A stretch of 64,000 bases of DNA from Streptomyces venezuelae (lineage in GTDB: Bacteria > Actinomycetota > Actinomycetes > Streptomycetales > Streptomycetaceae), in assembly GCF_008642335.1 (NCBI RefSeq), contig NZ_CP029191.1:7936001-8000000 (forward strand). Reading direction: 5' to 3'. Shown piece after piece: positions 3,503 through 36,042 of the stretch. The notes under the pieces are model-generated. The model did not search any database and had not been told where the DNA came from. It saw nothing but the letters and a program-made list of their open reading frames with translations. Positions within the stretch are counted from its first letter, which is position 1. Each line of letters begins with the position of its first letter. Both the position numbers and the translations under genes were made by a program.

Positions 3503-4432
3503 ATGGAAGTCGAAAACGTGGAGAACCAGACGATGTTTCTTCGGCAGAAGGGTGTCGCAGATGCCATCGACGACGCCGTCGAGCCGATACGGCGGACGCG
3601 GGACGAGATCGTGGGGCTGCCCCGCGTCGTGGAAGCCGACCAGGTCGCACCGAAGGACGCCCGCGAGCTGTCGAAGCTCTTCTTCGACCGGCTCAAGACC
3701 CTGGAGGAGGGATCGTCCGACTACCTGTACGCGCGCAACACCCTGATCGAGATGAACCTCTCCCTGGTCCACTACGTGGCCGGCCGGTTCCGCAACCGCG
3801 GCAACGGTCAGCTGGAGGACATCGTCCAGGTCGGGACGGTCGGGCTGATCAAGGCGATCGACCGGTTCGACACGAGCCGCGGCTTCGAGTTCGTGTCGTT
3901 CGCCGTCCCCTGCATCCTCGGCGAGATCAAGCGCCACTTCCGTGACACCAGCTGGGCCGTCCACGTGCCCCGCAGGCTCAAGGAGCTCCGCACCGAACTG
4001 GTCAAATCCCGTGAGCAGCTGTTCGCCGCACTCGGCCGCGAGCCGACCGTCCGTGAACTCGCGGAGGATTTGTCCGTGACCGAGGAGCAGGTCCTCGAGG
4101 TGATCGTGGCCGCCAACGGCTACGCCGCCGGCTCCCTCGACTCCCAGCACGGCGGGAGCGAGGACGGCACCACCCACAAGAACAACCGCTCGCTCGCCGA
4201 CGTCATGGGGGAGCCGGACCCGGCCATGGAGGTCATCGAGAACATCCACGCCCTGGCCCCGCTCCTCGCGGAACTCGACGAACGGGAACGCCGCATCATC
4301 GAGATGCGCTTCGGCCAGGAGATGACGCAGGCGGAGATCGGCAGCGTCATGGGCATCTCGCAGATGCATGTGTCACGCCTGCTGGCGAAGACCCTGGCCC
4401 GGCTGCGGACGGGGATGCTCGCGCACGAGTAG
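3503..4432 (+). CDS. RNA polymerase sigma factor, SigB/SigF/SigG subfamily
   Basis: A 309-residue group-3 sigma factor. Region 2 contains NTLIEMNLSLVHYVAGRF and DIVQVGTVGLIKAIDRFD; region 3 has FRDTSWAVHVPRRLKELR; region 4 ends with the HTH MTQAEIGSVMGISQMHVSRLLAKTL. SWAVHVPRR is the hallmark of the stress/sporulation SigF-type factors, which anti-sigma kinases and STAS antagonists control. The start is uncertain: ATG 3503 has no ribosome site, whereas ATG 3533 (MFLRQKGV) has GGAG 9 bases upstream, giving 299 residues. No anti-sigma gene is adjacent, so its switch partner must lie elsewhere. Confidence 0.93.
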   Translation: MEVENVENQTMFLRQKGVADAIDDAVEPIRRTRDEIVGLPRVVEADQVAPKDARELSKLFFDRLKTLEEGSSDYLYARNTLIEMNLSLVHYVAGRFRNRGNGQLEDIVQVGTVGLIKAIDRFDTSRGFEFVSFAVPCILGEIKRHFRDTSWAVHVPRRLKELRTELVKSREQLFAALGREPTVRELAEDLSVTEEQVLEVIVAANGYAAGSLDSQHGGSEDGTTHKNNRSLADVMGEPDPAMEVIENIHALAPLLAELDERERRIIEMRFGQEMTQAEIGSVMGISQMHVSRLLAKTLARLRTGMLAHE

Positions 4433-32828: not shown

Positions 32829-32945
32829 GCGGGTTGCCAGAAAGGTGGCCCGTGCGGGATCGTTGCCGCAAGACAACATTTTCCCTATGAGTTGGTGAGG
32901 TGAGGGACTCGCCCAGCGGGTCCTCCATATTTGGTCTCCCCCCAC

Positions 32946-34586
32946 ATGCAGACCGCCGCACGCACGGGGCCGGACTTCCCGTGGAGCGGAGCCCCCTACC
33001 CGGTCCTGGTCGTCGACGCGGCCGGGTTCCTCGAGCAGTGCAACGCCGCCGCACAGGTACTCCTGCCCGCCGCCCGCCCCGGGGCGCGCCTCGACGCCGT
33101 GGTCCCGCCCTGGCTGGCCGCCGCCCACGCAGCGACACACCTGCCCGGACCACGCGTCGTACAGGAATCGGACGCCCCACTCTCCGGAGCGATCGAAGGG
33201 CGCCGTTTCGAAGCACACCCGAGTGTGCGGGACGACGGCACCATCGCCTGGTGGCTCGTGGACCAGACGGACCATCAGCTCGCCCGAGAAGCACTCCAGA
33301 TGGAGAGAGAGCGGACCGCCTTCCTGGCGAAGGCGTCCAGCACCCTGCTCTCCTCCCTCAACCTCGGGCGCTGCATGGACGTCACCGCCCAGATGGCCGC
33401 CGAGAACCTCGCCGACGCGGCGCTCGCCATCGCACCGGCACGCGGCCACCGCCTGCCCGTGGTCACCTGCCTGCGCGGCGGCACCCCCACCACGTCGGAA
33501 CAGACGGTCGACCCCGACGAGGTCCCCGGCCTCGGCGAGGCCCTGCGCGGCTTCCCTCCCGTCCCCTCCCGCTGGATCGACCCGTCGGCGGCACCGGAGT
33601 GGATGATCCCCGAAGGCTTCGGCCCCATCGGAGCCATAGTGATCACCCCGCTGCCCGGCCACGGCGTCCCGGCCGGTGCGCTCGTCCTGCTGCGCAAGGA
33701 GGGCAGCGTCGGCTTCACCGAGAAGGAAGAGGTCTTCGCCCGCCTCTTCGCCGCACGGTCCGGCGCCGCCATGTCGGCCGCCCGGCTCTACGCCGAACAG
33801 ACCGCCATCACCGAAGTGCTGATGCGGGAGCTGCTGCCCCCGACCCTGCAGCACATCAGCGGAGTGGACTTCGCGGGGCGCTACCGTCCCTCCGCCGACC
33901 ACGAGCGGATCGGCGGGGACTTCTACGACGTACACCCCGCCGCCGTCGAGGGCGAGCCCTCACTCGTGACGCTGGGCGACGTCTGCGGAAAGGGCCTGGA
34001 GGCGGCCGTCCTCACCGGCAAGATCCGCAACACCCTGCACGCGTTGCTGCCGATGGCCGACGACCACCAGCGGATGCTCACCCTGCTCAACACCGCGTTG
34101 CTCAACTCCCACCACACCCGCTTCGCGACACTCGTCCTCGCCTCCGCCGTCCGCAGGGACGACGAAGTGCACCTGCGGCTGACCAGCGCCGGCCATCCGC
34201 CCCCGCTGATCGTCCGCGCCGACGGCACGGTCGAGGAAGCCGACACCCGCGGCACCCTGGTCGGGGCCATGCCGAACGTCCCCGCCCGCACCACCGCGGT
34301 CACCCTCGCCCCGGGCGAGACCTGCCTCCTGTACACCGACGGGATCACCGAGGCCCAGGGCGGCCCCATGGGCGACGCGCAGTTCGGCGAAGCACGCCTC
34401 AGGCGCGCCCTGGCCGGCTGCGCCGGGATGCCGTCGGAGGGCATCGTGGAACATGTCCAGATGCTCGCCTCCCAGTGGCTCGGCAACCGACGCCACGACG
34501 ACATGGCCGTCGTCGCCATCTCGGCGCCCCGCACGCACCATCTGAGTGCGGTGAACGGCCGCACTCGGGGCAGGTACACGGCATGA
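32946..34586 (+). CDS. SpoIIE/RsbU-type PP2C phosphatase with PAS-like and GAF domains
   Basis: 546 residues. A PAS-like N-domain (YPVLVVDAAGFLEQCNAAA) leads to a helical linker and a GAF-like domain at about 125-290. The PP2C/SpoIIE phosphatase then starts at MRELLPPTLQHISGVDFAGRYRPS, with metal aspartates in RIGGDFYDV and LGDVCGKGLEAA and a C-terminal HDDMAVVAI. These phosphatases dephosphorylate STAS antagonists to release sigma factors. ATG 32946 has no ribosome site (TTG 32931 is possible). Its TGA overlaps the B12-binding gene, making a coupled operon with a STAS gene. Confidence 0.92.
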   Translation: MQTAARTGPDFPWSGAPYPVLVVDAAGFLEQCNAAAQVLLPAARPGARLDAVVPPWLAAAHAATHLPGPRVVQESDAPLSGAIEGRRFEAHPSVRDDGTIAWWLVDQTDHQLAREALQMERERTAFLAKASSTLLSSLNLGRCMDVTAQMAAENLADAALAIAPARGHRLPVVTCLRGGTPTTSEQTVDPDEVPGLGEALRGFPPVPSRWIDPSAAPEWMIPEGFGPIGAIVITPLPGHGVPAGALVLLRKEGSVGFTEKEEVFARLFAARSGAAMSAARLYAEQTAITEVLMRELLPPTLQHISGVDFAGRYRPSADHERIGGDFYDVHPAAVEGEPSLVTLGDVCGKGLEAAVLTGKIRNTLHALLPMADDHQRMLTLLNTALLNSHHTRFATLVLASAVRRDDEVHLRLTSAGHPPPLIVRADGTVEEADTRGTLVGAMPNVPARTTAVTLAPGETCLLYTDGITEAQGGPMGDAQFGEARLRRALAGCAGMPSEGIVEHVQMLASQWLGNRRHDDMAVVAISAPRTHHLSAVNGRTRGRYTA

Positions 34587-35677
34587 GCACCAGCACCCCG
34601 TCCCGCCCCCGGACCGCCGCACCGCCCTCGGCGCTCGCCGACCAACTGTGGGAAGCCGTGTCGGTCGGCGACGAGTACACAGCCACCGAAGTCCTCCTGG
34701 GCGCCCTGGACGACGGCGCCGACCCCGAGTCCGTTCTCGTCGACGTGATCGCCGCCGTGCAGAGCAGAGTCGGCGAGGAATGGGCCGCGAACCGCCTCAG
34801 CATCGCCCAGGAACACGCCGCCACCTCCATCAACGAACGCGCCGTGGCCGCCGTGGCCCTGCACCCCGCCGCCCGAAGAACCCCCGACCGGGGCCGCATC
34901 ACGGTGGCGTGCGTCGACGGCGAATGGCACGCCCTGCCCGCCCGGCTCCTCGCCGAGGTGCTCAAACTGCGCGGCTGGCGCGTCGACTACCTGGGCGCAC
35001 AGGTTCCCGTCCCGCACCTCATCTCCCACCTGCACACCACGCAGGCCGACGCGGTCGCGCTGTCCGGCTCGATCGCCACCAGGCTCCCCACCGCGCACGC
35101 GGCGATCACCGCATGCCAGGCCGTCGGCGTCCCCGTCCTGGTCGGCGGCGCCGCGTTCGGACCGGGCGGCCGCTACGCACGCCTGCTCGGAGCCGACGCG
35201 TGGGCACCCGACGCCCCGGCCGCCGCCGACCGCCTCGCCGAGGGCCACCTGCCGCGCCCGCAGGCCGACCACCAGCAGCTGGACGACCTCCCGCACCTGG
35301 CCGACCAGGAATACACGATGGTCACCCGCAGCGGCGACGCACTGGTGCGCACCGTCTTCCGCGCCCTGGAGGACGCGTTCCCCGCCATGCGCGGCTACGA
35401 CGAAGCGCAGCGCGAACGCACGGCGGAGGACCTCGCGCACATCGTCGAGTTCCTCGCCACCGCCCTCTATCTCGGGGACGAGGACCTCTTCGGCTGGTTC
35501 ATCTCCTGGACCGCCCGGATCCTGGAGGCCCGAGGAGTGCCCGTGCGCTCCCTCCCCCCGGCGCTCGACCTCTTCCTGCACGAGCTGAAAGACTTCCCCC
35601 GGGCGTCCCGCATCCTGCGACGCGGACTCGAAGCCCTCACCACCGATCACCCCACCGTGCCTGGAACGCCCGTATGA
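34583..35677 (+). CDS. B12-binding sensor protein with CarH-like adenosylcobalamin motif
   Basis: 364 residues. A four-helix B12 cap precedes a Rossmann-like B12 domain (RITVACVDGEWHALPARLLAEVL, VDYLGAQVPVPHLISHL, ADAVALSGSI, VPVLVGGAAF). Trp67, Glu77 and His78 have the exact W-x9-E-H spacing that in CarH photoreceptors caps the adenosyl group and supplies the second axial His. His116 in DGEWH is the probable lower ligand. There is no DNA-binding domain; residues 240-345 form an all-helical output region. ATGA overlaps join it to the phosphatase and STAS genes. It is inferred to be a light or cobalamin sensor for a partner switch. Confidence 0.85.
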   Translation: MSTSTPSRPRTAAPPSALADQLWEAVSVGDEYTATEVLLGALDDGADPESVLVDVIAAVQSRVGEEWAANRLSIAQEHAATSINERAVAAVALHPAARRTPDRGRITVACVDGEWHALPARLLAEVLKLRGWRVDYLGAQVPVPHLISHLHTTQADAVALSGSIATRLPTAHAAITACQAVGVPVLVGGAAFGPGGRYARLLGADAWAPDAPAAADRLAEGHLPRPQADHQQLDDLPHLADQEYTMVTRSGDALVRTVFRALEDAFPAMRGYDEAQRERTAEDLAHIVEFLATALYLGDEDLFGWFISWTARILEARGVPVRSLPPALDLFLHELKDFPRASRILRRGLEALTTDHPTVPGTPV

Positions 35678-36042
35678 CCACACTGCCCCCCGCACTCCGC
35701 CTGGCCACCGCGGGCACCGCGGACACCGTCCACATAGAGATCACCGGCGATCTCGACTACGACAACGCCGAGTACCTCCTGGCCGAGGTCACCGAACAGC
35801 TCGGCGCCCGGCCCGGCCTCCGGGACCTGCACCTGCACTGCGCGGGCGTCGCCAACGTCGACTCCATGGGCCTGTCGATCCTGCTGATGATCGGCCGCCG
35901 CACGGCGGAGACCGGCACACGTCTGCACCTGGACGACCGGCCCCCGAACCTGGAGCGTCTCCTCGACCTCACCGGCACGCTCGAATACTTCACGGGAGCG
36001 GCAGCCCCCGACGCGGACCCCGCCCCCGACGGCGCCCTCTGA
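35674..36042 (+). CDS. STAS-domain anti-sigma factor antagonist
   Basis: 122 residues. STAS fold: VHIEITGDLDYDNAEYLLAEV, then LHLHCAGVANVDSMGLSILLMIGR, where Ser64 of VDSMG is the expected phospho-site. Antagonists of this type bind an anti-sigma kinase when dephosphorylated. It overlaps the B12-sensor stop (ATGA), so the SpoIIE-type phosphatase encoded two genes upstream is its natural partner. No kinase is in the operon. Confidence 0.92.
   Translation: MTTLPPALRLATAGTADTVHIEITGDLDYDNAEYLLAEVTEQLGARPGLRDLHLHCAGVANVDSMGLSILLMIGRRTAETGTRLHLDDRPPNLERLLDLTGTLEYFTGAAAPDADPAPDGAL

Follow-up and report, generated by a model that had tools for sequence, protein, structure and literature searches.

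A photocobilin operon of Streptomyces venezuelae and its candidate connection to a partner switch

What is a cobalamin-binding protein doing between a phosphatase and an anti-sigma-factor antagonist? The question is raised by a three-gene operon of Streptomyces venezuelae, within a stretch of 64,000 nucleotides (assembly GCF_008642335.1, contig NZ_CP029191.1, positions 7,936,001 to 8,000,000; here, the window, by whose numbering its features are located). The operon, on the forward strand and about 76 kb from the end of the 8.05 Mb contig, encodes a SpoIIE-type (PP2C) phosphatase (32931..34586), a B12 protein of 364 amino acids (34583..35677) and a STAS anti-sigma-factor antagonist (35674..36042). 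A preliminary description, made from the sequence alone, proposed that a B12 photoreceptor is wired here into a SpoIIE/STAS partner switch. This is a real, well-conserved photocobilin operon, the sensor and proposed partners of which are already known; the functional idea stands, strengthened by the gene neighbours in relatives, and we consider it probable that the operon consists of a standalone photocobilin gating a partner switch.

A photocobilin between a phosphatase and a STAS protein

By sequence and predicted fold, the B12 protein is a photocobilin. A sequence search of the PDB retrieves SasPcob, the photocobilin of Saccharothrix syringae (8j2w, 8j2x), with an expect value (E) of about 8e-81 over residues 19-353, and AbPcob (8j2y) with E 2e-39, the CarH structures being far behind, at about 1e-8 to 1e-9. 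The predicted fold (mean predicted local distance difference test score, 88.5) matches SasPcob with template modelling scores of 0.82-0.83 when normalised by query length and 0.89-0.91 when normalised by target length, at 44-45% identity. The B12 part (34634..35215) comprises a four-helix cap (residues 18-90) and a B12 domain (residues 105-211), and Pfam recognises B12-binding_2 (PF02607, E 9.3e-15) and B12-binding (PF02310, E 3e-16). The preliminary description had rightly seen a B12-binding protein devoid of a DNA-binding domain: Pfam finds the B12 domains only, with no MerR DNA-binding domain, and the first predicted helix starts at residue 15. What it overlooked is the C-terminal photoglobin (globin-like bilin) domain at residues ~242-354 (35306..35644), assigned from a sequence match and from the predicted fold.

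The ligand residues support the reading of this protein as a B12 photoreceptor, as do the solved structures of its homologues. Trp67, Glu77, His78 and the putative lower-ligand His116 stand exactly where they had been placed, with the W-x9-E-H spacing, and align with SasPcob Trp61, Glu71, His72 and His108. Loss of Trp67, Glu77 or His78 in close orthologues, which would speak against a photoreceptor, was looked for, and all three, like His116, are kept in 80 of 80 relatives. SasPcob Asp270, Trp296 and His137 contact biliverdin, according to Zhang et al. 2024 (PMC10979010); the equivalent Asp283, Trp309 and His145 are each present in all 80 relatives, and so are the residues that surround the adenosyl group in SasPcob. 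Because these 80 are the best of 350 relatives, the constancy is shown among close relatives only; the checks used six search patterns, two of which covered His116 and Trp309. Given that the biliverdin residues of SasPcob are kept, the window photocobilin is predicted to be sensitive to both green and red light. AbPcob has His at the position of the biliverdin Asp in the alignment and binds biliverdin poorly (PMC10979010).

Two published motifs bear on the assignment. The light-responsive B12 signature GxxW, EH, GxxH, GxxxP, as given in PMC11796333, is found as G64xxW67, E77H78, G113xxH116 and G138xxxP142, and in 29 aligned sequences G64, W67, E77, H78, G113, H116 and G138 are invariant and P142 nearly so. 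The CXQD motif that precedes the bilin Asp of photoglobins, as described in PMC10151467, is missing, the window protein having T280-A-E-D283 and SasPcob T-L-D-D; this does not exclude a photocobilin because SasPcob and photocobilins generally are without the Cys of that motif (Zhang et al. 2024, PMC10979010). The genome encodes a single photocobilin, two further weak matches covering only residues 59-192, and a single heme oxygenase (PF01126, E 4.3e-64) that could be the source of biliverdin. Two regions of the same genome (G000:C1:134562-135092 and 1408207-1408737) match the B12 query and PF02607 with equal scores and perhaps represent a duplicated methionine synthase gene.

The three genes overlap by ATGA, as previously described: read directly from the sequence, the phosphatase stop TGA at 34584-34586 overlaps the photocobilin ATG at 34583, and the photocobilin stop at 35675-35677 overlaps the STAS ATG at 35674. 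The start of the phosphatase had been placed at ATG 32946 and is more probably TTG 32931: in an alignment of 47 sequences, an in-frame start codon (TTG, GTG or ATG) falls in column 41 in 40 and in column 42 in the other seven. The SpoIIE part of the proposed PAS-GAF-SpoIIE architecture is recognised by Pfam (PF07228, E 2.4e-41), whereas PAS and GAF have no Pfam match at E of at most 1 and are read from the order of the predicted fold (PAS-like, GAF-like, long helix, PP2C domain). The best PDB match of the phosphatase is 3ke6, the RsbU and RsbW domains of Rv1364c. Beyond residue 300, in the PP2C part, 24 columns of Asp, Gly or His are conserved in 75 or more of 77 sequences, among them Asp325, Asp345, Asp465, Asp518 and Asp519, and the conserved Asp residues are presumably metal ligands. 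The STAS protein (STAS_2, PF13466, E 1.1e-12; also PF01740) carries in a DSxG motif Ser64, which is present in 65 of 71 relatives (three gaps, three other residues) and which we take, by analogy, to be the phospho-acceptor. The step from phosphatase to STAS protein is supported in general by PMC11418112.

Partners, neighbours and the leader of the operon

The phosphatase is the most constant partner of the photocobilin, given that SpoIIE adjoins it (within 400 nucleotides on the same strand) in 79 of the 80 related loci, the exception being L038, and STAS in 71, and that, among the 29 best-scoring loci of a class-wide sample (the window's own excluded; short flanks), SpoIIE is present in 29 and STAS in 15. 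Operon conservation, which the preliminary description proposed to compare, is thus high. In the class-wide sample, 45 of 296 genomes have a photocobilin (E at most 1e-30). Nine further stretches, chosen as distant or odd cases, include two that repeat loci already counted; five have SpoIIE, and no SpoIIE match was found in L148, L153, L154 and L155, the photocobilin of L155 lying at the end of its contig, where the upstream gene is not visible. No naturally occurring fusion to SpoIIE or STAS was established for the photocobilin, the long open frames being without a domain scan. A photocobilin match ends an 1810-residue open frame that has no SpoIIE match and is possibly a fusion (L148:1760-7189), and in L134 and L135, of another family, a tandem pair of photocobilin genes follows a single SpoIIE gene.

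In the RsbU/RsbP-RsbV-RsbW-sigma-B switch, the logic runs from phosphatase through STAS protein and HATPase to sigma factor. A linked anti-sigma kinase, another proposed check, is absent beside the window operon, but a kinase-like gene lies within 500 nucleotides on the same strand in 16 of the 80 related loci, 11 of them from Amycolatopsis and Pseudonocardia (the photocobilins of L070 and L071 are identical); such a gene is found within 1.5 kb in 31 loci and within 5 kb in 37. Altogether, 40 HATPase kinase-like matches lie within 5 kb of the operon compared with 7.6 expected from the density in the S. venezuelae genome, a rough comparison because the matches were detected with a custom profile (made from 26 sequences of that genome and two from L017 and L066) and the density comes from Pfam.

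Five of the 80 loci (L017, L038, L055, L074 and L083) have a SigB-type gene no more than about 4 kb from the operon; a weak sigma match in L018 was rejected as such a neighbour, belonging to another sigma clade in the tree. The full set of kinase, phosphatase, photocobilin, STAS protein and sigma-B-type factor occurs together in at least two relatives. In L074 (S. diastatochromogenes), SpoIIE, photocobilin, STAS, HATPase and sigma genes follow one another on one strand, and in L161 the order is HATPase, sigma, SpoIIE, photocobilin, STAS and then carotenoid (crt) genes; in L083, kinase-like and SigB-type genes both lie around the operon. Pfam confirms the sigma, HATPase, second SpoIIE and MarR genes of L017, the sigma gene of L038 and the HATPase of L066. 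Among 11 related sigma matches in the S. venezuelae genome, one, of the SigB/SigF/SigG type (TIGR02980, 283 bits against a cut-off of 234), is inside the window (3503..4432, forward strand). It is a candidate target with 61% identity to the sigma factor beside the L017 operon, although at 28 kb from the operon the link is not demonstrable. In the sigma tree, it falls near the L074 and L168 factors, at an open fork, and the operon-linked factors do not form one clade, so that no target sigma factor can be assigned.

Some relatives point to a possible output. In five of the 80 loci (L017, L066, L080, L081 and L082), the start of a crt cluster is no more than about 2 kb from the operon. In L017 and L157, the photocobilins of which are near that of the window, SpoIIE, photocobilin, STAS and MarR genes are followed by crtY, with a SigB-type gene in between in L017. 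Pfam and NCBIfam support the labels lycopene cyclase, crtI and polyprenyl synthetase; the labels crtU, crtT, crtB and crtV are our presumption, no family so named having appeared in the scans made. Across 392 genomes of the genus, 126 have a photocobilin (called at E of at most 1e-80) and 195 a lycopene cyclase (query PF05834, E 8.6e-96), with both in 99; the cyclase is thus present in 99/126 genomes with and 96/266 without a photocobilin (odds ratio 6.5, Fisher P 2e-15, kinship ignored). The two genes lie within 15 kb of each other (1.2 to 13 kb) in at least 11 of the 126 genomes, compared with about 0.35 expected from random placement of 99 pairs. These 11 (G359, G543, G419, G420, G321, G572, G506, G398, G354, G310 and G613) were picked by eye from both lists and are a minimum because not every lycopene cyclase position is listed. 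The idea that the photocobilin replaces LitR in crt clusters is not supported, litR-like genes being found in 2 of 11 photocobilin-near and 4 of 29 control crt regions, and a SigB-type promoter pattern has nearly the same density in 16 crt-linked regions (0.85 per 10 kb) as in 29 controls (0.79). CrtS is the SigB-like carotenoid activator of S. griseus. For Mycobacterium smegmatis, PMC5401885 describes an action of a sigma factor named SigF on carotenoids. In some relatives, then, the targets of the photocobilin switch may include carotenoid genes. The S. venezuelae genome has two MerR-B12 regulators of its own: a LitR-like gene (L147:14629-15687, G000:C1 ~900628-901686) beside its own crt cluster and divergent from an ECF-type (extracytoplasmic function) sigma gene, and a second (L115:3810-4760) with a frame containing sigma-70 regions 2 and 4 on the opposite strand.

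The operon is preceded, on the same strand, by a leader with a conserved RNA hairpin of nine pairs (32904..32924), located between a Shine-Dalgarno-like GAGGTGA (32897..32903) and the TTG start of the phosphatase (window 32897-32933). In the 47-sequence alignment, GAGGTGA, presumably complementary to 16S rRNA, occupies columns 7-13, six of the seven columns being identical in 47/47. The 29-nucleotide element is present upstream of SpoIIE in 46 of the 79 loci with an adjoining SpoIIE, and a covariance model adds L024. Of the 414 cells of the nine-pair hairpin, 99.3% are paired, and A-U and G-C exchange, the counts at columns 17-31 being A-U 20, G-C 20 and G-U 6. The covariation score is 0.306, with a shuffle mean of 0.238 and none of 500 shuffles reaching the score, and for both cells paired and covariation the hairpin exceeds all shuffles and all slid versions; with a bulge and 10 pairs, the fit is slightly poorer (97.4%). 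G-U pairs are numerous, which speaks for RNA rather than a DNA operator. Some measures of the hairpin came out null: the count of further pair types is not above shuffles; the fold energy over 131 nucleotides of the leader is not better than shuffles (z -0.18); in a search for the hairpin beyond its own group, over 57 sources, only the window, L024, L157 and L158 match the model well, the next having E 0.19; and a lookup in Rfam only gave no match to the leader up to E 1 and no prior report of the hairpin. Lying between the two, the hairpin, once folded, would shorten the distance from the Shine-Dalgarno to the start codon of the phosphatase.

The element is near-specific to photocobilin operons, yet of the 126 genomes with a photocobilin only about one in four has it. 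The S. venezuelae genome has one match at up to three mismatches, and the 392 genomes have 35 in 32 genomes at up to two mismatches, a reversed control pattern giving none; of these matches, 33 are located some 1.7 kb 5' of a photocobilin, and the other two (G464 C5 and G363 C40) have no listed photocobilin on the contig. Farther upstream, also on the forward strand, are promoter-like boxes (32834..32861), TTGCCA at 32834-32839 and GGGATC at 32856-32861, 16 nucleotides apart, picked by eye and untested against chance; similar boxes are seen, again by eye, in many of 24 upstream regions compared with that of the window. An operator-like imperfect palindrome, GTTGCC-N4-GACAAC (32862..32877; GTTGCC-N4-GGCAAC in its perfect form), lies 5' of the hairpin at the presumed promoter; GTTG-N6-10-CAAC occurs within 150 nucleotides upstream in 17 of 79 relatives, the other loci compared ending in CAAT or CAAG. 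A MarR gene stands just 3' of the operon in 31 of the 80 related loci (for example, L017:11438-12055), with none there in the window, and the palindrome is a possible binding site for this MarR protein.

A candidate light-gated partner switch

The SpoIIE phosphatase, the phospho-serine motif of the STAS protein, and the kinase-like and sigma-B-type genes beside the operons of some relatives support the partner switch of the preliminary description. In the dark, the photocobilin would hold adenosylcobalamin (AdoCbl), and biliverdin, as a dimer. Green light absorbed by B12, or red light via biliverdin, would break the Co-C bond, and the dimer would fall apart, as in SasPcob; the changed photocobilin would alter the activity of the co-encoded SpoIIE-type phosphatase, perhaps via the PAS-GAF part; the phosphatase would strip the phosphate from Ser64 of the STAS protein; and the dephosphorylated STAS protein would bind an anti-sigma kinase and thereby free a sigma-B-type factor. 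We infer for this protein the light response itself, the contact with SpoIIE, the direction of the switch and the sigma target. More tentatively, and with clear reservations, we suggest that photocobilin partner switches are a second B12-based light route to actinomycete carotenoids beside LitR-LitS, in which green or red light, by way of photocobilin, SpoIIE and STAS, would free a sigma-B-type (CrtS-like) factor for crt genes, the RNA hairpin setting the expression of the switch by bringing a distant Shine-Dalgarno to the phosphatase start.

Several observations weigh against this picture. A HATPase_c_2 search of the S. venezuelae genome gave 80 matches, none of them within the window, and no sigma or crt gene adjoins the window operon. 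STAS was not found beside the operon in nine of the 80 loci, and a more sensitive search of these nine and of six crt-linked regions again gave none beside the operon, with matches elsewhere in L035 and L072 only. The HATPase excess sets a custom profile, partly seeded from two of the 80 loci themselves, against a density of Pfam matches, and a SigB-type promoter pattern was found upstream of only 2 (forward) and 4 (reverse) of 80 operons, with a shuffle mean of 0.6. Linkage to crt is confined to a minority of loci, with six changes on the photocobilin tree, a count rather than a test because the rows of that tree were chosen for crt linkage; and in S. venezuelae itself, where a MerR-B12 regulator stands beside the crt cluster, light control of crt may not need the photocobilin operon. 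Finally, the effect of SasPcob on a cyclase domain reversed sign without biliverdin, and full-length AbDPcob stays dimeric in the light (Zhang et al. 2024, PMC10979010), so that direction and mechanism cannot be read off the literature.

Other explanations account for part of the same evidence. The photocobilin might act on the STAS protein, or on a STAS-kinase complex, rather than on the phosphatase, as a split-RsbR-like globin-type sensor with a separate STAS partner. The STAS gene is directly 3' of the photocobilin gene, with the ATGA overlap in the window, and adjoins it in 71/80 loci, and the globin domain of RsbR served as the photoglobin outgroup in PMC10151467; but the phosphatase is the commoner partner (79/80 vs 71/80; 29/29 vs 15/29), STAS was not found beside the operon in the crt-adjacent loci L066, L081 and L082, and we regard this arrangement as rather unlikely. 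It is improbable to a greater degree that the photocobilin senses not light but how much AdoCbl or biliverdin is supplied, or the redox state of either, and hence cofactor or haem-breakdown status. The motifs, to be sure, show cofactor binding and not a biological light response, and AdoCbl binding alone lowers the cyclase activity of AbDPcob (Zhang et al. 2024, PMC10979010); however, the adenosyl-pocket residues of SasPcob are kept in all 80 relatives, and lycopene cyclase tends to occur in genomes that have a photocobilin, the two genes being neighbours in some of them. That a corrinoid carrier or another B12 enzyme came to lie in a signalling operon by chance would explain a more modest similarity to the corrinoid proteins of methionine synthase and methyltransferases, but those scores are far below that of the match to photocobilins, and the protein has the C-terminal photoglobin domain; this reading is disfavoured to the point of being scarcely credible.

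The photocobilin operon among known systems

If the gating of a partner switch by the photocobilin is borne out, B12 and bilin would place a sigma-B-type switch of soil bacteria under light control, and the cassette could be put to use in Streptomyces as a red/green optogenetic module. PMC10979010 calls the function of standalone photocobilins less clear, and the recurrent phosphatase, STAS, kinase-like and sigma neighbours, together with the crt-adjacent copies, offer a concrete readout for it, namely, pigment and sigma-dependent transcription. In the passages searched of the photocobilin and photoglobin literature, we found neither a tie between photocobilins and crt genes nor a report of kinase-like and sigma neighbourhoods of photocobilins.

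The preliminary description knew of no system with this architecture, a claim that fails because the photocobilin family has been described and because Zhang et al. 2024 (PMC10979010), from network analysis, named STAS, SpoIIE and PP2C-like phosphatases as potential interaction partners of SasPcob and suggested a role in stress. The same paper describes the light-driven monomerisation of SasPcob and, with AbPcob, its chromophores and photochemistry, and reports an effect of isolated photocobilin domains on how active a separate diguanylate cyclase domain is; its main text uses the word "kinase" 0 times, "carotenoid" once (about CarH) and "sigma" twice, such neighbours not being discussed there. 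Streptomyces sp. M41 was also chosen for that network analysis, and the source strain of L055 bears the same name.

SasPcob is thus the closest point of comparison: the window protein shares with it the alignment over residues 19-353 and the B12-ligand, adenosyl-pocket and biliverdin residues, and the partners proposed in Saccharothrix correspond to the SpoIIE and STAS proteins encoded in the window operon, although the two photocobilins are only 44-45% identical. AbDPcob (8j2y) has the same sensor module as the window protein and controls an enzyme with it, but its output is a fused diguanylate cyclase and it has His for the biliverdin Asp, whereas the window protein keeps the Asp and would have its output on separate proteins. 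With the MerR-type regulators CarH and LitR, the window photocobilin has in common the B12 domains, W-x9-EH and the lower-ligand His, but it is without a DNA-binding domain, has an added bilin domain and scores 56 bits against the NCBI CarH cut-off of 400. Rv1364c of M. tuberculosis and the RsbU/RsbP switches, finally, share with the window operon the phosphatase fold and the phosphatase-STAS-HATPase-sigma logic, the difference being that here the input is a separate photocobilin and that the window operon includes no kinase or sigma gene.

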